Part shown: positions 39,560 through 48,878 of the stretch, in pieces
How positions within the stretch are numbered: the stretch's first letter is position 1
Layout: each line of letters begins with the position of its first letter
Assembly (NCBI RefSeq): GCF_011682175.1
Contig: NZ_WHJG01000019.1
Location: 1-64,000, forward strand
Length of the DNA: 64,000 nucleotides
Direction: 5' to 3'
Origin: Massilia frigida
GTDB taxonomy: Bacteria > Pseudomonadota > Gammaproteobacteria > Burkholderiales > Burkholderiaceae_D
The notes under the pieces: model-generated
The model's database searches: none
Seen by the model: only the letters and a program-made list of their open reading frames with translations
What the model was told of the DNA's origin: nothing
Position numbers and translations under genes: made by a program

Positions 39560-40522
39560 CTAAAGAATATCCGCCGGTGTGGACAGCTTGGCAATTTCAT
39601 CCATCAGGCGCGCCAGCACGCGCCCGTTGCGGCACAGCGCCACGTGGCCGACGCCGCCGAAAGCGATATTGCGCGCCCCTTCCAGCACGCTGGATGTTTG
39701 CGGGGCCACGATGTTGTCGTGGTGGGTATAGAGGGAGGTGATGAGGGCGCGCGTGGCCGCGCTTTCGCTGGCGCCCAGCGCGCGCAGCCAGGCGCTTTCA
39801 AGAGCCTCGCCGCCGGCCTGGCGCTGCATCTGGCTGGCGTTCACGCCCACGCCCTTGCCGGCCAGGACGGTGCCGTGATGCGGCGTACCGATGGTAAATA
39901 CATGGGCCACGCGCGCGCTGCCGTGCGCGCGCAGGTAGGCGCGCGCCACCAGGCCGCCCATGCTGTGCGCCACGATGATGACGCGCTGCGCGCCGCTCGC
40001 TTCGCACAGGGCGTCGGCGGCGCGCCGCACCAGCGGCACGAAGTCGTCGATGCCGGCCAGCAGCGGCTCCAGGTCGAGCGAGGCGTGGCTGATGCGGGCC
40101 GCGTCGAGATGCCGTGCCAGGTGCGCCCAGTAGCCGCTGTTGCAGCCGTAACCGTGCAACAGCAGCACCGGCGGCGCAGTGCTGCCGGCGTAAAGACGCT
40201 GGCGCGCCACCGCGTGCACCATGAACCACGACGATTGCAGCATGCTCGCCATGAATTCCTCGGCGAACAGGCGCAGCATGGCGCCGGGACCGATCCGGAA
40301 CGGCGCCGGCGTCGGGCTGGCAAAGCGCGCCGTCATGACGAAATTGTTCGCCGTGATCAGCAGGCGCACCAGCAGCACCGCGGCCAGCCCGCAGCCGAGC
40401 GCCAGCCAGGGCGAGGCCAGGCCGCCGTAGCGCATCGCCGCGAAGCCGATGGCGCCCGCCGCCGCGGCCTGCACCAGCAGCAGCGAGCGCAGCAGGGCGC
40501 GCGTGCTCAGCGCCACCTTCAC
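39560..40522 (-). CDS. Membrane-anchored lipase/alpha-beta hydrolase (GTG start)
   Basis: A 320-residue protein with one or two N-terminal membrane helices (residues 8-30 and 38-57), then an alpha/beta hydrolase (PVLLLHGYGCNSGYW oxyanion region, nucleophile VAHSMGGL with Ser187, and GTPHHGT typical of triacylglycerol lipases and PGAP1-like esterases). The GTG at 40522 overlaps the stop of the GMC gene by 4 bases and gives this start; no ATG fits. It is the last gene of a Tat-protein / GMC oxidoreductase / hydrolase operon. Substrate may be an ester, possibly linked to the product or feed of the oxidoreductase (inference). Confidence 0.88.
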   Translation of the reverse strand: MKVALSTRALLRSLLLVQAAAAGAIGFAAMRYGGLASPWLALGCGLAAVLLVRLLITANNFVMTARFASPTPAPFRIGPGAMLRLFAEEFMASMLQSSWFMVHAVARQRLYAGSTAPPVLLLHGYGCNSGYWAHLARHLDAARISHASLDLEPLLAGIDDFVPLVRRAADALCEASGAQRVIIVAHSMGGLVARAYLRAHGSARVAHVFTIGTPHHGTVLAGKGVGVNASQMQRQAGGEALESAWLRALGASESAATRALITSLYTHHDNIVAPQTSSVLEGARNIAFGGVGHVALCRNGRVLARLMDEIAKLSTPADIL

Positions 40523-42135
40523 GCGACCCGGGGGGCCGGCTTGCCGCTCAGTTCCTGCGCCAGCTCGCTCGCTAGGCGCGCCGTGATGGCATAGATCGAC
40601 AGCTGCGGATTGGCGCCGATCGAGGTCGGGAACAGCGAACCGTCGTGCACCGACAGGTTGCGCACGCCGTGGTAGCGGCCATTCGCGCCGACCACCCCGC
40701 GCCGCTCGTCGTCGGACATGGTGCAGCCGCCCATCACGTGCGCCGAGACGATGCGCGTGATGTGCTCCCGCATCGGCAGCGCGGCGATGCCTTTCCTGGC
40801 GCCGTCCCAGCTGGTATAGCGTTCGGCCAGTTCGTGCACCGGCTGCACGCTGGTGGCGCCGGCTGCGAACTGGATTTCGGCCATCGACAGCATGGCGCGG
40901 CGCACGCCATCCCACAGATAATCACCCAGCGGATAATCGAGCAGCGCCGCGCCTTCGCGCGTCAGGCCCACGCTGCCGCCCGGGGCGTCGCCATGAAAAC
41001 CGTCGCGCAGCAGCGCCAGCAAGCCATGCACATGGGGGAACTGGCGCATGGTGTCGGTATGCGCCTGGCCATATCCGGCCATGGTGGTCGACAGCAGCAG
41101 CGGATGCAGGGGCGGCGCTTCGAGCTTGTAGCCGATCGGCCCGTCGATCGGGCCAGTTTGCAGGAAGTGATCGGAGTAGATGGTTTGCGGGGCGCCGGCG
41201 AAGCCGTCCACGCGCTGCGCGAAGATGCCGGCCGAGATCACGGTCGGATGCAGGAAGGTGCGCCTGCCGAGCAGCCCGTGGGGATTGGGCGCGCGTGAGC
41301 GCAGCAGCAAGGCCGGCGAATTGATCGCCCCGCCGGCCACGATGAAGTGTTTGGCGCGCAGCGTGACGACCCGCCCGCTCGCAGCCAGACCGCTCGCGTC
41401 CATCGCTTCGCACACCAGGCTGTCGACCGCGTCGCCCTTGAACACCAGGCGCTGGGCGCGCGCATGCGTGAGCAGGGTGGCGCCGTGGCTGAGCGCCGAC
41501 GGGATGGTGGTGACCAGCATCGACTGCTTGGCATTGGTCGGGCAACCCATGCCGCAGTAGCCCAGGTTCCAGCAACCCTTGACGTTGCGCCGGATCGCGC
41601 CCGAGGAAATGCCCAGGCGTGCGGCGCCGCGCTTGAGCAGGTCATTGTTTTCGTTGGGCGGGGCTTGCCAGTCGCCCACCGACAGGCGCGCTTCCATCAT
41701 CGCGAACCAGGGCGCCAGCGCCTCGGTGCTGTAGCTGGCCAGGCCGAAGTTTTTTTGCCAGTACGCCAGGGTCGGGGCCGGGGTGCGAAAGCTCGAGGTC
41801 CAGTTGACGGTGGTCGAGCCGCCTACGGTGCGCCCTTGCAGGATGTTGATGGCCTTGTCGCGCGTCTTGCGCGCGGCCGATTCCTGGTACAGCGCCGGAT
41901 AGGCATCCGCTTCGCGCATCTTGAAGTCTTTCGAGGACTTGAGCGCGCCCTCCTCCACGATGACGACCGTGAGGCCGGCCAGCGCCAGGATCTCGGCGCT
42001 GACGCCGCCCCCGGCGCCGCTGCCGATGATGACCACGTCGGCAAGGATGGTGCGGTCGGCCTCGAGGCGGGCGCCATCGATCACTTTCCAGCCGGCTGCC
42101 AGGCCGGCTTCGATCGGATCGGGGATGGGGCTCAT
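40519..42135 (-). CDS. GMC family oxidoreductase
   Basis: A 538-residue FAD-dependent alcohol/sterol oxidase-like enzyme. The dinucleotide motif VVIIGSGAGGGVSAE is at residues 34-48; the GMC signature lies in LQGRTVGGSTTVNW near 100; the C-terminal active-site region contains SAHVMGGCTMSDD with the catalytic histidine pair zone. Eight or more cysteines (for example GCWNLGYCGMGCPTNAK) resemble other GMC enzymes that act with a small subunit. It overlaps the Tat-signal gene upstream (4 bases) and the lipase downstream (4 bases), indicating one functional unit. Substrate alcohol or sterol is undefined. Confidence 0.92.
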   Translation of the reverse strand: MSPIPDPIEAGLAAGWKVIDGARLEADRTILADVVIIGSGAGGGVSAEILALAGLTVVIVEEGALKSSKDFKMREADAYPALYQESAARKTRDKAINILQGRTVGGSTTVNWTSSFRTPAPTLAYWQKNFGLASYSTEALAPWFAMMEARLSVGDWQAPPNENNDLLKRGAARLGISSGAIRRNVKGCWNLGYCGMGCPTNAKQSMLVTTIPSALSHGATLLTHARAQRLVFKGDAVDSLVCEAMDASGLAASGRVVTLRAKHFIVAGGAINSPALLLRSRAPNPHGLLGRRTFLHPTVISAGIFAQRVDGFAGAPQTIYSDHFLQTGPIDGPIGYKLEAPPLHPLLLSTTMAGYGQAHTDTMRQFPHVHGLLALLRDGFHGDAPGGSVGLTREGAALLDYPLGDYLWDGVRRAMLSMAEIQFAAGATSVQPVHELAERYTSWDGARKGIAALPMREHITRIVSAHVMGGCTMSDDERRGVVGANGRYHGVRNLSVHDGSLFPTSIGANPQLSIYAITARLASELAQELSGKPAPRVA

Positions 42136-42668
42136 GCCAGTTCCTTGATCGGACCGGGATAGCCGATGCCGGCCCAGCTGGACGGATCGGCATACCAGGA
42201 ACCGATGATCAGGTCATGCAGCGCGTGGTAGGCGCTTTGCAGCATGCCGATGCGGTGAAAGCGCCAGTCGTGCAGGAATACGCCGACCTGCTCGACGCTG
42301 GCGCCGGCCCAGCCGCCCGACACGCCCGCCAGCAGGCGCCGCGCGGGCGCCAGCGAGAGCAGGCCGAACAGGTCCTGGACTTCCTTTTGCGCAGACAGCG
42401 GCAGGCCCAGGATGGCCTGGTGCACGCGCGCGGTGGTGGCCGTCACGGCGGCCAGGCGCGCGCCCGGGTCGGCCGGCAGCGCCCCGGCCAGCATGGCCGG
42501 CACGATGGCGTCGATGGCCGCGCGCGCTTCGCCGTCGAGGGCAAAGCGGCCCAGCGGCGAGGGATGGGTATAGCGGTAAATGCCGCCGCCTGCCGCCAGG
42601 GTCAGCGCGGCCAGCGCCCCGACCTTGAGGAAGGTTCTGCGTTTGGTCTCCATGTCTTTGTTTTCCAT
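42132..42668 (-). CDS. Tat-exported small subunit for the GMC oxidoreductase
   Basis: A 178-residue protein whose N-terminus has a twin-arginine signal (TKRRTFLKVGALAALTLAAG), so it is exported folded through Tat. The rest is helical and resembles gluconate 2-dehydrogenase subunit 3-like small subunits that pair with GMC flavoproteins. The ATG at 42668 is chosen because it starts the Tat signal; its stop overlaps the GMC start by 4 bases. The GMC partner lacks its own signal, so it may be carried by this protein or piggyback through Tat (inference). Confidence 0.82.
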   Translation of the reverse strand: MENKDMETKRRTFLKVGALAALTLAAGGGIYRYTHPSPLGRFALDGEARAAIDAIVPAMLAGALPADPGARLAAVTATTARVHQAILGLPLSAQKEVQDLFGLLSLAPARRLLAGVSGGWAGASVEQVGVFLHDWRFHRIGMLQSAYHALHDLIIGSWYADPSSWAGIGYPGPIKELA

Positions 42669-42720
42669 GCTATTTTTTGGGGTAGTGTACGCCAAAGGGG
42701 ATGGTATAAAATCCAACAAA

Positions 42721-42740
42721 CTAGAGTGAACCGTCTAGAC
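42721..42740. promoter_or_regulatory. Inverted repeat in divergent promoter region
   Basis: CTAGA-N8-TCTAG (42721-42738) overlapping the 8-bp palindrome GTCTAGAC (42733-42740), in the 90-base gap between the Tat-protein gene (minus) and the FFLEE-motif gene (plus). An AT-rich TATAAAA lies at 42705-42711. Position suits an operator, but no regulator gene is nearby, so this is tentative. Confidence 0.35.
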
Positions 42741-42758
42741 GTTTCTGGTACAAAGCGA

Positions 42759-43457
42759 ATGAATAAAGACAAACTGGCCGCCGAACTCGAACACCATCTG
42801 CGCCTGCTGGCGGCCGGGCGCGAGCAGGCGCGCCGCGATCCGGCCCTGCAGGCGGCGCGCACGGCGCTCAAGCGCTACCAGTCGGCCCGCCTGGCCGCCA
42901 CCCACCCCGACCTGCTGGCCGCGCCCGACACGCGCGAGGCGGCCGCTTTTTTCCTCAACGATATCTATGGCGCGCACGACCTGGAGCGGCGCGAGGCCGA
43001 CCTCGAACGCGTGGTCCCGAGCCTGCAGCGGCTGCTGCCCTACGAATCGCTGCACACGATCACGGGCGCGATCGCGCTCGACGCCCTGACCGAACAGCTC
43101 GATACAGCCATGGCGCGCGTGCTGGGCGCCGATGTCGATGAAGGCGCGTACCTGCTGGCCTACCGCAGCGCCACCGCACCCGAGCAACGCGCGCGCCAGC
43201 TCGACCTGGTGCAGCAGCTGGGCGACTCGCTGTGCACGCTGGTGCGCATTCCCCTGCTCTCGCTGACCTTGTCGGTGATGCGCGGGCCGGCCAGGCTGGC
43301 CGGCGTGACCGACCTGCACCAGTTCCTCGAACGCGGTTTCAGTACCTTCAAGAAGATGAAAAAGCCGGCCCAGTTCGTCGACACCCTGGTCGGACGCGAA
43401 CGGCGCGCCATGGGGCATATCTACAGCGGACGCAGGGAACCCTTCGACGTCTTCTGA
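42759..43457 (+). CDS. FFLEE-motif family protein (hypothetical)
   Basis: A 232-residue helical cytoplasmic protein. The segment AAAFFLNDIYGAHDLERREAD near residue 61 corresponds to the FFLEE-type motif used to name this family. Predicted all-helical, with no signal or membrane helix. The ATG at 42759 lies in a promoter-like divergent region. Function is unknown. The next 500 bases to the CTQ-oxidase gene do not suggest an operon link. Confidence 0.78.
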   Translation: MNKDKLAAELEHHLRLLAAGREQARRDPALQAARTALKRYQSARLAATHPDLLAAPDTREAAAFFLNDIYGAHDLERREADLERVVPSLQRLLPYESLHTITGAIALDALTEQLDTAMARVLGADVDEGAYLLAYRSATAPEQRARQLDLVQQLGDSLCTLVRIPLLSLTLSVMRGPARLAGVTDLHQFLERGFSTFKKMKKPAQFVDTLVGRERRAMGHIYSGRREPFDVF

Positions 43458-43965: not shown

Positions 43966-46900
43966 ATGAAAGCGAGTCAGCCCCTGCACAGTGCGTTCCG
44001 GATTCATCCTGCCGTCGGTGTCGCGCGGGTGGGCAATAGCGAGGAATTTGTCATCGCTCCCGAGACCATGGCCGGCGCTCCGATCGCCCCGGGCCAGGTG
44101 CTGAGCGGCGGTTTGCCGATCCGGGCTGGCAGCGAGGCCGACCCGGTGCGCAGCGGCGACCTGCGCGATGCGCAAGGCGCCCTGAAGCGCCAGGCCGCGC
44201 GCTTTCGCATCTTCCACTACGCCCCCCAGGCCAGCGAGAGCTGGCCGCGCGGCGACGGCACCGAAGTCGGGATCGGCACGCGCATCGAGGGCTTGACGGT
44301 GACCGACATCATCTGGACCGTCCACCTGGCCAACAAGAAAGCCAACACCTTTGTGCTCGAAGAGACGCATCTGCCGGGCATCGATGGCTACGCGGAGGGG
44401 CAGCTGCCGCCGATCCGCAATGCCGCGCTGCCACTCCAGCAAGCGTCGCACTCGACCGACAAGATTGCCATCCTGAACCTGCCGGAACGGGTCCGCAAGC
44501 TGACCATCGACCCCGGTCCGCGCACGATCGCGGGCGCGCGCGCCAGTGCCGTGCATTTCGACAAGGCCACCGCGGCCTCGTATTACGACGCGGCCAGCGC
44601 CAGCGTGGTTGCGCTGGCGCGCTATCCGATGTCCTTCCCGGGCGACGCGTTCGCGCGCATGGACAGCCCCGCCGGCCCGATCGATACCCTGGGCAGCCTG
44701 CTCACCGACGAGCGCGGCCGCCTGCTGGTGGTCGGCGGCTTCGGGCGCGCCAGCGGCTGGGCGCAAGTCGCTCCCACGCCGCTGAACGATGATGTGAACA
44801 ACGACCAGTGGTTCGACGACACCTCGGACGGCCCGGTATCGGCCACGCTGGTGTTCGACGACGGCAGCCACGCCGTGGTGCACGGCGCCTGGGTCACCAC
44901 CACCGATCCGGCCTATGCACCCCAGATCCCGAACATCGTGTCGCTGTGGGACGATGTGTACGACTGCTGGGTGCGCAAGATGGCGCTGGCGCCGGCCATC
45001 TTCAACGCCAAGACCGGCACTTACCGGAGCGACTACAAGCCCAGCTTCGACGACCAGCTTGCCCCCATGTTCACCAGCGCGGCGCTGCAGCAATGGACGG
45101 TCAACATGAGCGAGCGCGGCATGTCGGCGCACCGCAACCTGGCCACCATCCGCGCCGTGGACGATCCGGCCAGCACCGCCCTGGCCGGGCTGGCCGCGAT
45201 CTTCCGCAATCCGTTCGAGCCCGGCCATACCGACACCACGCGCATGCCTTTGCACCTTGGCGACGCCAAGAGCGCAATGCTGACCCTGCGCCAGACCCAG
45301 TATTTCTTTCTGCAACGCTGGAACCAGGGGCGCGGCAACTATGTCGCCGGCAGCGGCCCGGCGCTGGGGGCCGGCGAGTATCTCGACAAGGCGACCATGG
45401 TCAACTGCCTGGGCGGGCGTTTCAGTCCCGGCATCGACCTCACCTTCACCATGCGCGAAGCGGCCATCTACCTGCAACCCTGGGCCAGCTGCGGTGCCGG
45501 GCCGTTCCGCATCCGAGCCGCCGCGCTGGACTACGCGGCGATCGCTGCCGGCCCCGGCACCGGCGCGCCCTTGCTCAGCGTCGGTTATGTGCCGCGCCAC
45601 CGCGAGGCGGAGGGGCTCGAGCCGGGCGACCTGTCCAAGTTCATGGCAGTGCCGTGGCACACCGACTATAACTCCTGCGCCACCCACCTGCCCTCGCCCA
45701 ACCCGCCCGGCAACCGCACCCTGTTCTGGTCGTGGCCGGCGCAACGGCCGGTAGCGGTCTACGCCCTGGCCGACGTGCGCAGCGAAGCGTCCGGCGATAT
45801 CAATACCCAGGAACCGGACCGGCCGCCACAGGTCGCCGTGCTCGGCGCGCAACGCTGGTCCGTGCGCGGCCCCGGCACCGATTCCGGGCAGCCGGAGAAC
45901 TGGGGGCGCTACCAGAACCGCATGGACATCCTCGATCACTGGCACCGTATCGGCGTGGTCATGCAGGCGAGCGCGATCGACGGCAGCACGCTGGCACTCG
46001 ACGATGGCTGGTACCTGGAAGTGGAAAGCAAGCTGGTCGATACTGGACTCACGCCCGTGGTGCCGTTTCCCAACTTCGCCAGCGCGACCGCATCCACTGA
46101 CGCCCGCACGCTCGACGCCCGCAACCTGTTCCACCAGCTGATGAACGTGGCGGCGCATCCGGAAGTGCTGCCCGACGCGCGCGCCTACGTCGATGCCTGG
46201 CTGGCCTGGGCCGAGCTGTTCGCCGCCGATCCGCAGCGCGCCTCGGCGGACTTGCTGGCATTCGATTACAGCGAGGATGCGTTTCGCGAGCGGCTCGACC
46301 TGATTTACCAGGAAATGGTGGACGATGCCGCCGCCGTCGATCCGGGCGACAATGGCCAGTATTTCAACACCTATGCCGCGATGGTGACCTACACCATCCA
46401 GTGGGCGCCGTTCAACCTGATTGACGGCGCCTGGCTGCGCAACATCGGCCGCACCGGTCCGATCGACGCCGTGCGCGCGCTGCTGTACTCGGTGTCGATG
46501 GATGAAATGGGCGATGGCAATGTGTCCATGAACCATTGCAATATCTACCGCGATCTGTGCGCCTCGGTCGGCTACTATCCGCAGCCGATCGACTCGCGCG
46601 AATTCGCCTTCGATCCGACCTTTCTCGACAGCGCCTTCAGCGTACCGGCATTCCAGATGGCCATTTCGCAATTTTCGGAAGATTATTATCCGGAACTGAT
46701 CGGCATGACCCTGTACCTGGAATGGCAAGTGGTCGACCTGAAGCCGACCCGCGACCTGATGGAGTATGTCGGCATCGATCCGCACTTTTATGTCATGCAC
46801 ATCGGCATCGACAACGCCGTCAACGGCCACGGCCAGCGCGCCGCCGAGGCGGTGCGGCTGTATCTGCAGGGCGTGCGCGACCTCGGTGAAGGCGAGCAGG

Positions 46901-47745
46901 CGGTGCAGCGCGCATGGCGCCGCATCTGGAACGGCTTCGTCGCCTTCGGCAGCATCGGCAGCTTCGGCGCAGACCTGATCAAGCTGGTCACGCAAGCGCC
47001 CACCCTGCGCCAGCAAATGCTGTCCATGATCGAGCGCAAGACGACCTTCGGCAGCCGCAACCACCAGAAAAAGATGGTGGGCGGCTGCCGCATCGACGAG
47101 TGGTTCGCCGACCCGCCCGGTTTCCTCGACGCGCTGGTCGAACATGGCTGGATCACGCCCGGCGACTGGGCCGGCAGCCGCATGCATGCCTTGATGAATT
47201 TCGAGACCGGCCCCATGTACCGCGTGTTCACCGATGACGAAATCACGCTCTGGGCCGATTACACCGCCGCGCTGGCCCATCCCGCGCCGCCGCCGGCCCC
47301 GCCGCCGCTCCCGCCCGCCTTCGCGATGGCGGCGCTGGTCGAGCAACTGCGCCCGGTGCAGCGCGGCGTGGCCGGTCACGCCACCGGCATGATGGCCGAC
47401 CCGCACGGCGTGATCCACTCGATGGCCTGGTGGTTCGAGCAAAGCACGCGCGACTTGATGGCGGCGCTGGCCTCGCCCGTCAACGGCCTGGTCGTGCCGG
47501 GCCGGCCGCAGGACAGCCGCTTTTTCATGAGCCTGATCGCTCCCACCGGCCCCATGGGCTCGGCGTTCAGCCTGCCGGCGGCGGCGCCGAACAGCGGCAC
47601 TTGCCGCGATGTGGTGCACCGCTGGATCCTGAACCAGTGTCCGCTGCTGGACCCGGCGCCCCTGCGCGTGCGCCTGCACTCGCCGCGCGCCAGGCACGAA
47701 CGCAATCCGGGCGGGAAGATCATTGGCATGGGAGGCGTGCATTGA
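43966..47745 (+). CDS. LodA/GoxA-type CTQ oxidase fused to a haem-oxygenase-like diiron oxidase
   Basis: A 1259-residue fusion. Residues 1-690 match the LodA/GoxA family (FRIHPAVGVARVGNSEE at the start; PVSATLVFDDGS; MDILDHWHRIGVV). The two residues that would form the cysteine tryptophylquinone cofactor are present: Cys481 in NCLGGRFSPGID and Trp564 in AVPWHTDYNSC, 83 apart (65 in LodA). Residues 715-1090 resemble haem-oxygenase-like diiron oxidases ('iron-containing redox enzyme'): candidate ligands Glu847, His857, Glu910, His945, Asp949 and His955 (HIGIDNAVNGHG). A Pro-rich linker at 1106-1120 leads to an unknown 140-residue end. No signal peptide. Amine oxidation coupled to iron oxygenation is inferred. 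Overlaps lodB-like gene by 4 bases. Confidence 0.82.
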   Translation: MKASQPLHSAFRIHPAVGVARVGNSEEFVIAPETMAGAPIAPGQVLSGGLPIRAGSEADPVRSGDLRDAQGALKRQAARFRIFHYAPQASESWPRGDGTEVGIGTRIEGLTVTDIIWTVHLANKKANTFVLEETHLPGIDGYAEGQLPPIRNAALPLQQASHSTDKIAILNLPERVRKLTIDPGPRTIAGARASAVHFDKATAASYYDAASASVVALARYPMSFPGDAFARMDSPAGPIDTLGSLLTDERGRLLVVGGFGRASGWAQVAPTPLNDDVNNDQWFDDTSDGPVSATLVFDDGSHAVVHGAWVTTTDPAYAPQIPNIVSLWDDVYDCWVRKMALAPAIFNAKTGTYRSDYKPSFDDQLAPMFTSAALQQWTVNMSERGMSAHRNLATIRAVDDPASTALAGLAAIFRNPFEPGHTDTTRMPLHLGDAKSAMLTLRQTQYFFLQRWNQGRGNYVAGSGPALGAGEYLDKATMVNCLGGRFSPGIDLTFTMREAAIYLQPWASCGAGPFRIRAAALDYAAIAAGPGTGAPLLSVGYVPRHREAEGLEPGDLSKFMAVPWHTDYNSCATHLPSPNPPGNRTLFWSWPAQRPVAVYALADVRSEASGDINTQEPDRPPQVAVLGAQRWSVRGPGTDSGQPENWGRYQNRMDILDHWHRIGVVMQASAIDGSTLALDDGWYLEVESKLVDTGLTPVVPFPNFASATASTDARTLDARNLFHQLMNVAAHPEVLPDARAYVDAWLAWAELFAADPQRASADLLAFDYSEDAFRERLDLIYQEMVDDAAAVDPGDNGQYFNTYAAMVTYTIQWAPFNLIDGAWLRNIGRTGPIDAVRALLYSVSMDEMGDGNVSMNHCNIYRDLCASVGYYPQPIDSREFAFDPTFLDSAFSVPAFQMAISQFSEDYYPELIGMTLYLEWQVVDLKPTRDLMEYVGIDPHFYVMHIGIDNAVNGHGQRAAEAVRLYLQGVRDLGEGEQAVQRAWRRIWNGFVAFGSIGSFGADLIKLVTQAPTLRQQMLSMIERKTTFGSRNHQKKMVGGCRIDEWFADPPGFLDALVEHGWITPGDWAGSRMHALMNFETGPMYRVFTDDEITLWADYTAALAHPAPPPAPPPLPPAFAMAALVEQLRPVQRGVAGHATGMMADPHGVIHSMAWWFEQSTRDLMAALASPVNGLVVPGRPQDSRFFMSLIAPTGPMGSAFSLPAAAPNSGTCRDVVHRWILNQCPLLDPAPLRVRLHSPRARHERNPGGKIIGMGGVH

Positions 47746-48878
47746 CTGGCCCGGAGCGCTGCGACGTCGCCGTGCTGGGGGCCGGACCGGCCGGCTGCGC
47801 GACGGCGCTGGCGCTGGCGCGCAATACAGCCTGGCGCATCCGCCTGATCGACCCCGGCGTGGCGCCCGGGCCCAGGGTCGGCGAGACCTTGTTGCCCGAC
47901 ACCCGCCTCGTGCTGGAACAGCTGGGCGTGCTGGATGCGTTCCTGGAGCAAGGCCACGCAAGCTGCCTCGGCAGCTGCTCGGCGTGGGGCAGCGCCATCC
48001 TGGGCTTCAATGACTTCCTGCTCAGTCCGAACGCGCTGGGCTGGCATCTGGACCGGCGCCGCTTCGATGCCTTCTTGCTGGACCATGCCGCCGCCCGCCC
48101 GCAGGTGCGCTGCCTGCCGTCCCGCTTCGAGGCGTGCGCGCCGCTCGCCGGCGGCGGTTTCGCGCTGCGGCTGGCGGACCGGCAGGGCTCTGGCGCGGTG
48201 CTGGAGGCGCGCATCGTGGTCGACGCCACCGGACAGCGCGCCGCGTTTGCCCGGCGCGCGGGCGCGCGCCAGCAGTACCTGGACCGCCTGATGTTCGTGT
48301 ATGGCTTTTTCGACACCGGCGCGGCCAGTTCCAGCGCCAGGCTGACCGTGCTGGAAGCGGCGCAATCGGGCTGGTGGTATGCGGCGCAGTTGCCCGATGC
48401 GCGCCTGGCCGTGGCCTGCGCCACCGATCCGGACTTGCTGCGCCGGGATGGCCTGGGCGGCGACGACGCCTGGCTGGCGCGGGTGCTCGCCACCGGGCAT
48501 ATCGCCGCCCGCCTCGACGGCTGCCGTTTCCTGCGCGGATCGCTGAGCATACGCCCGGCCCTCAGCGGCATGCTCGATACCGTCGCCGGAGCGCACTGGC
48601 TGGCGGTCGGCGATGCCGCCGCGGTGTACGATCCGCTGGCGGCGCAGGGCATCCATAAAGCCTTGTCCGACGGCCTGCGGGCGGCAGCGGCGATCGATGC
48701 CGCGCTCGGCGCCGACGGCGTGCTGGCGCCAGGGTATGGCAGCGGCGCGGCCGAGCGCTTCGAGCAGTACCGGACCAACCGCAACTATTTTTATGGACTG
48801 GAGCGGCGCTGGGAGCGGGACACGTTCTGGCAGCGCCGCCATGCGCGCACCGAACTGCAGCCGGCGCGCGGCCATTGA
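47742..48878 (+). CDS. LodB-like FAD-dependent oxidoreductase (CTQ maturation factor)
   Basis: A 378-residue flavoprotein. The start is TTG at 47742, overlapping the LodA-like stop (TTGA); GGAGG sits at 47731-47735. The FAD motif VLGAGPAGCATALALA is at residues 10-25, and WLAVGDAAAVYDPLAAQGIHK near residue 287 is the second FAD site. The closest known group is LodB/GoxB, related to tryptophan halogenases, needed to form CTQ in the partner oxidase. The coupled position fits that role. No halogenase KxxWxWxIP motif was seen. It probably matures the N-terminal half of the fusion protein. Confidence 0.88.
   Translation: MTGPERCDVAVLGAGPAGCATALALARNTAWRIRLIDPGVAPGPRVGETLLPDTRLVLEQLGVLDAFLEQGHASCLGSCSAWGSAILGFNDFLLSPNALGWHLDRRRFDAFLLDHAAARPQVRCLPSRFEACAPLAGGGFALRLADRQGSGAVLEARIVVDATGQRAAFARRAGARQQYLDRLMFVYGFFDTGAASSSARLTVLEAAQSGWWYAAQLPDARLAVACATDPDLLRRDGLGGDDAWLARVLATGHIAARLDGCRFLRGSLSIRPALSGMLDTVAGAHWLAVGDAAAVYDPLAAQGIHKALSDGLRAAAAIDAALGADGVLAPGYGSGAAERFEQYRTNRNYFYGLERRWERDTFWQRRHARTELQPARGH

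Follow-up and report, generated by a model that had tools for sequence, protein, structure and literature searches.

Can one polypeptide hold both a protein-derived quinone and a diiron site and, if so, would the two centres be expected to work together? The question is raised by a 1259-residue protein encoded in a 64,000-nucleotide stretch of the Massilia frigida genome (contig NZ_WHJG01000019.1; hereafter the window), in which a LodA-type half is followed by a haem-oxygenase-like (HDO) domain. To our knowledge, protein-derived quinones and diiron oxygenases have so far been studied as separate enzymes, and one chain with both centres would let the diiron site's source of reducing power or peroxide be probed directly.

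The architecture itself is already known. Five LodA-like proteins that contain pfam14518 appear, without characterisation, in Table 3 of a 2015 survey, which treats the larger LodA-like proteins as apparent gene fusions for which experiments are called for (PMC4417212). These proteins and that of the window belong to the LodA family and share the same Pfam family, but by the survey's description pfam14518 is N-terminal in the former, while it is C-terminal in the latter. The first-pass annotation was aware of no enzyme of this architecture that had been characterised, and a literature search (titles and abstract openings, among the matches listed, with most subscription journals outside its reach) indeed found no characterised LodA-HDO enzyme, nor any link between the fusion and mnxG; the architecture, however, has been in print since that survey. 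What is new here is the correction of the cofactor residues, the repeated assembly of the fusion and its link to mnxG.

The gene pair and its predicted cofactor residues

The pair formed by the fusion gene and its flavoprotein neighbour is genuine (Table 1). The LodA-type half, annotated at first as complete, has both of its domains above their Pfam cut-offs: LodA_N (PF17990) at residues 14–311 (E 5e-53, 180.7 bits against a cut-off of 26.3) and LodA_C (PF18417) at residues 430–577 (E 4e-34, 118 bits against 25). The third domain, Haem_oxygenas_2 (PF14518), matches residues 808–987 (E 1e-20, 74.3 bits against 28.9). The best NCBIfam matches of the 378-residue open reading frame (ORF) downstream are LodB, GoxB and QhpG (NF038171, 232.7 bits; NF038174, 222.4; QhpG, 144.7), every one of them below its equivalog cut-off, and this ORF shares the four bases TTGA (47742–47745) with the end of the fusion gene, the TTG being its probable start codon. 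The LodB-like partner and its overlap, the proline linker (a proline-rich stretch near residues 1106–1117) and the absence of a signal peptide, in that no hydrophobic stretch is seen at the N-terminus of the fusion on reading the sequence by eye, were all rightly described at first pass.

Table 1. Features of the fusion gene and its neighbour (coordinates refer to the window)
Feature	Coordinates	Strand	Basis
LodA-HDO fusion gene, 1259 aa	43966..47745	+	ORF; PF17990, PF18417 and PF14518 above cut-offs
LodB-like flavoprotein gene, 378 aa counted from TTG	47742..48878	+	NCBIfam matches; 4-base overlap
LodA half, residues 1-700	43966..46065	+	Profile alignment to LodA 3weu/2ymw
Predicted CTQ pair, Cys571 and Trp590	45676-45678 and 45733-45735	+	Profile alignment to LodA; 30/30 LodA-type rows
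Asp567, at the position of LodA Asp512		+	Profile alignment to LodA; 30/30 LodA-type rows
HDO (haem-oxygenase-like) domain, about residues 701-1013	46066..47004	+	PF14518 at 808-987
Putative HDO ligand positions E847, H857, E919, H945, D949, H955; D820 a possible seventh		+	45-row columns; SznF alignment
First small domain past the HDO core, residues 1015-1106	47008..47283	+	Shared with stand-alone HDO relatives
Proline-rich linker, about residues 1107-1117	47284..47316	+	Sequence
Repeat of the small domain, residues 1118-1230	47317..47655	+	hhalign between copies
C-terminal tail	47656..47742	+	Conserved final residues

In LodA, cysteine tryptophylquinone (CTQ) is formed by C516 and W581 (PMC4417212). 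When a profile built from five fusions is aligned with LodA (3weu, 2ymw) and positions are counted along the alignment, C516 (in ‘WQADFFNC’) meets C571 of the window protein (‘WHTDYNSC’), and W581, the second Trp of ‘WWPPQ’, meets W590 (‘LFWSWPAQRP’). Cys481 and Trp564, which had been taken for the CTQ pair, align with LodA C442 and W509 and have to give way to Cys571 and Trp590. D567, C571, W590 and also W564 are each present in 30 of 30 LodA-type rows, and C481 in 27. The window protein thus resembles LodA (a lysine epsilon-oxidase) and GoxA (a glycine oxidase) in having LodA_N and LodA_C, the Cys and Trp of CTQ, a conserved Asp ahead of that Cys and a LodB-type gene downstream; it differs from them by some 550 additional residues, the HDO domain included, and by its scores with the NCBIfam models (LodA, 229.9 bits; GoxA, 146.9), which lie so far below both equivalog cut-offs (600 or 750) that its substrate may be other than lysine or glycine.

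For the HDO domain, a profile of 22 rows was searched against the PDB, and conservation was counted over 45 rows (seven fusions and 38 relatives), 14 of 52 HDO ORFs having been dropped as partial or as repeating a retained sequence. The best PDB match is 9pfw (E 0.001), which has no His at the position of H955, while SznF is matched weakly (E 0.08–0.1). In this weak match, five of the residues reported to bind metal in SznF (E215, H225, E281, H311, D315; PMC11705231) align ungapped with E847, H857, E919, H945 and D949, and the sixth, H318, meets H955 only past a gap of three residues. E919, H945 and D949 are found in 45 of 45 rows, and E847, H857 and H955 in 44, all three being missing from one divergent row (L069). 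The ligand set first proposed stands in five of its members (E847, H857, H945, D949, H955); the remaining one, E910, is invariant in the 45 rows, but SznF E281 aligns with E919, which replaces it. The HDO half would accordingly bind two metals through E847, H857, E919, H945, D949 and H955.

A further position, D820, aligns in the same weak match with SznF E189, which we take to be the extra (seventh) carboxylate ligand of the 3H/4C subgroup of HDOs; it is D in 44 of the 45 rows and E in one (L069). Compared with SznF and other HDOs, then, the fusion shares PF14518 and, by alignment, the six E/H/E/H/D/H ligand positions, and differs from SznF in the gap before the last His, in the Asp where SznF has E189, and in the two small C-terminal domains that stand in place of SznF's cupin. 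HDOs have a seven-helix fold, in which the ligands would lie in binding geometry; two AlphaFold models, computed from three-row alignments (the window protein and those of L044 and L045, introduced below), are of low confidence (mean pLDDT 46.2 and 34.6), and the ligand list is therefore based on sequence. As corrected, the residue list simplifies testing to a single mutation for each cofactor.

The C-terminal segment, described at first as unknown, is a duplicate of the small domain that lies behind the HDO core. The two copies match each other across the seven fusions in one hhalign comparison (probability 96.5, E 9e-10); a profile of the second copy recovers the first in 7/7 fusions (E 0.001 or better), and a profile of the first recovers the second within inclusion in 6/7, the value for that of Paraburkholderia caribensis being 0.014. 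The final six residues are, in all seven, G, M or N, three variable residues and H. The duplicated domain and the conserved tail could be structural, and the HDO half might on that account be a binding or oligomerisation domain that has lost its chemistry; this we consider improbable, given that the six ligand positions are retained in 7/7 fusions, across phyla. A MarR-type regulator fold was considered for the small domain and set aside, the PDB matches being too weak (9qdr, E 0.011; 3bpv, E 0.11). A match to the segment in genome G042 lies inside an ORF that resembles, by eye, methionyl-tRNA synthetase, and was for this reason attributed to chance.

Distribution and repeated assembly of the fusion

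In all, seven complete fusions came to light, spread over five genomes or records and at least three phyla. Two belong to the window genome (the window gene and a second one, G000:C197), one to another genome of the genus (G012), one to a metagenome-assembled genome (MAG) of Planctomycetaceae (L044), two to a single Acidobacteria MAG (L045 and L125) and one to a plasmid of P. caribensis (L085). The genome-contig scan used two peptide patterns, and its two matches are a lower bound. All three Pfam domains are present in each of the five fusions scanned for them (window, L044, L045, L125, L085), and the finding of seven full fusions with the six ligand positions kept in every one places the PF14518 match beyond chance.

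The architecture is real and it is rare. A profile of the HDO half matches frames longer than 1000 residues in 2/17 genomes of the genus, in 1/399 of the order and in 1/398 of the phylum, the window genome being included each time and at most three candidates being scored per genome in the order and the phylum. With a profile of the whole fusion and both halves required in one frame, the fusion is found in 1/294 genomes of the phylum of L044 and in 1/297 of that of L045 (at most two candidates scored per genome), in each case the genome already known. One scan of viral contigs with the fusion alignment gave no relative. The concern that most homologues of the LodA half might bear the same second half is answered by the 20 LodA genes of the order (21 rows, one gene being split in two; 15/399 genomes): at the sensitivity of the search only two carry the HDO half, both from the window genome.

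The history of the two halves is not the same. For the LodA side, 30 LodA-type rows were placed in a tree, partial, truncated, duplicate and HDO-only ORFs having been removed by hand (e.g. L018, L134, L102 and L109, and further L090, L003, L031, L075 and L113). The LodA half of the window protein joins LodA proteins that are not fused (G014, G895, Xanthomonas sacchari, Pseudoalteromonas xiamenensis) with support of 100/100, and those of the other six fusions form a separate clade (98/98). A tree constrained to unite all seven is worse by 327 log-likelihood units (p-AU 4.4e-7). In the tree of the 45 HDO rows, by comparison, the HDO halves of the seven fusions form a single clade (100/100). Identity by blocks of 50 residues follows the same line: the window protein and the unfused LodA of G014 are 28–84% identical as far as residue 700, past which no block exceeds 6%, and the window protein and the Planctomycetaceae fusion are 6–50% identical in the first 700 residues and 28–64% in blocks 701–1250. 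Model preference differs as well, the window LodA half scoring higher with LodA than with GoxA, while the five sister halves scored, out of the other six, favour GoxA (278–374 bits, against 170–224 with LodA).

One HDO clade joined to two LodA lineages means that the pairing of LodA and HDO was made at least twice. Either the fusion would have originated twice or the LodA half would have been swapped in frame, and both courses suggest that selection held the pair together. A pairing made twice argues for a joint function, and the presence of the HDO module behind two quite different LodA halves suggests that the halves work together. GC content was considered as a mark of recent fusion (0.61–0.65 in the HDO segment against 0.69 in the LodA half), yet a sister fusion dips too (0.59 at residues 681–850), so the dip in the window gene is not used as evidence.

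LodB linkage and mnxG-type operons

A LodB-type gene stands immediately downstream of six of the seven fusions; none was found adjoining the L045 fusion, in whose genome the other fusion does have such a neighbour. This linkage bears on the idea that the HDO half might help to make CTQ in its own chain, with LodB or instead of it, as CADD-type HDOs are described as modifying their own protein (PMC13108848). Such self-maturation appears very unlikely: besides the 6/7 fusions with a LodB-type neighbour, the unfused LodA of G014, a close relative, is likewise accompanied by a LodB-type gene and keeps the same CTQ residues.

Three of the seven fusions (G000:C197, L007 50–12940; G012, L041; and the Acidobacteria fusion L125) lie in mnxG-type operons, in which the order is a MnxG-type multicopper oxidase, a beta-propeller protein, the fusion, LodB, SCO1 domains and a cytochrome/substrate-binding protein. 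The product of the first gene scores 1067 bits (L125) and 740 bits (C197) with the NCBIfam MnxG model, both below the cut-off of 3100, and that of L125 matches MnxG 9bxa with an E-value of 2e-87. According to Table 4 of PMC11409713, the mnxG operon of Pseudomonas putida GB-1 keeps this gene order but lacks the LodA pair; what it shares with the surroundings of the sister fusions is mnxG, the beta-propeller gene, SCO1 and a substrate-binding protein with a cytochrome part, and what sets G000:C197, G012 and L125 apart is the insertion of the fusion and lodB between propeller and SCO1. The oxidase, propeller and SCO1 genes are also present in Indioceanicola, without a relative of the fusion.

The window fusion itself is outside any mnxG-type operon. 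To its left are a 272-residue ORF (42639–43457, + strand) with no Pfam match and, on the opposite (-) strand at 40519–42719, a GMC oxidoreductase gene and a small-protein gene that overlap by 4 bases; the small protein has a weak Tat-signal match, below cut-off, and by tblastn neither of these two genes adjoins the other fusions. A SpoU-type methylase gene lies to the right of the pair. Elsewhere, LodA genes are found near tyrosinase and SCO or multicopper-oxidase genes on plasmid 2 of P. caribensis (L085 11935–26090) and in Mesorhizobium huakuii (L134 1–6987), which are possibly recurring multi-oxidase clusters.

Proposed reaction and other LodA and HDO partners

The reading that we prefer, and about which our judgement is evenly divided, sees in the protein a CTQ amine oxidase, matured by LodB, and coupled to it a diiron oxygenase that acts on the same molecule or on the product. 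By analogy with LodA and GoxA, Trp590 would be oxygenated by LodB and cross-linked to Cys571 to give CTQ; the LodA half would then convert a primary amine, which probably belongs to an amino acid or a peptide, into an imine or carbonyl, and reoxidation of the quinol by O2 would yield H2O2. The HDO domain, if like SznF it binds two metals, would oxidise the same substrate, or the product, a second time, and the fusion would link the halves either by passing the substrate on or by supplying the diiron site with H2O2 or with electrons from the quinol. The CTQ positions that are kept, the ligand positions retained in 7/7 fusions, the LodB-type neighbour of 6/7, the repeated pairing, and the catalase-type fusions and ferritin-like neighbour of other LodA proteins (below) speak for this reading; counting against it are the many LodA genes, most of those observed, that do without the HDO half, the low equivalog scores of the LodA half, the weakness of the SznF match with its gap before the last histidine, the lack of a His at the H955 position in 9pfw, and the low pLDDT of both models.

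The peroxide that the CTQ half would release allows another role for the HDO half, that of a built-in, peroxidase-like guard that removes or uses H2O2. Catalase-type domains do occur on other LodA proteins (PMC4417212, Table 3), and a LodA fusion of G1235 (L162 3427–6498) has, by eye, a catalase-like N-terminal region. A guard seems unlikely nonetheless, as characterised HDOs are described as acting mainly on fatty-acid or amino-acid substrates (PMC13108848) and no peroxide-specific feature was found in the window protein. A bolder form of the coupled amine oxidase and oxygenase is a self-fuelled enzyme, in which the CTQ half gives H2O2 or quinone electrons to the diiron site and the HDO domain then oxidises the amine-derived product without a separate reductase, the mnx-linked sisters supporting manganese oxidation; we regard this as speculative and rather improbable.

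LodA is also joined to other partners: a fusion of G531 (L126 8950–12318) has a C-terminal VWA domain (Pfam), and on plasmid p3 of Azospirillum brasilense (L132 4623–7848) a gene for a ferritin-like protein (PF12902), a different and possibly diiron partner, stands directly ahead of an unfused LodA gene.

The HDO domain likewise occurs without LodA. Relatives of about 700–770 residues are found in L019, L054, L092, L093 and L111, and others of like length in L057, L064 and L086; in those of G049, G422, G521, G628 and G758 the HDO region is matched in two places. The relative of G628 (L128) is near a polyketide-synthase gene, by eye, and that of L086 is near P450 and acyl-CoA dehydrogenase genes. 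An HDO protein that stands alone, about 500 residues long and of a kind found in 11/17 genomes of the genus, is encoded in the window genome (G000:C176, L008 6686–9290) and is followed on the same strand by a methyltransferase gene; in G059 (L021) a similar pair, identified by eye, is adjacent and on opposite strands.
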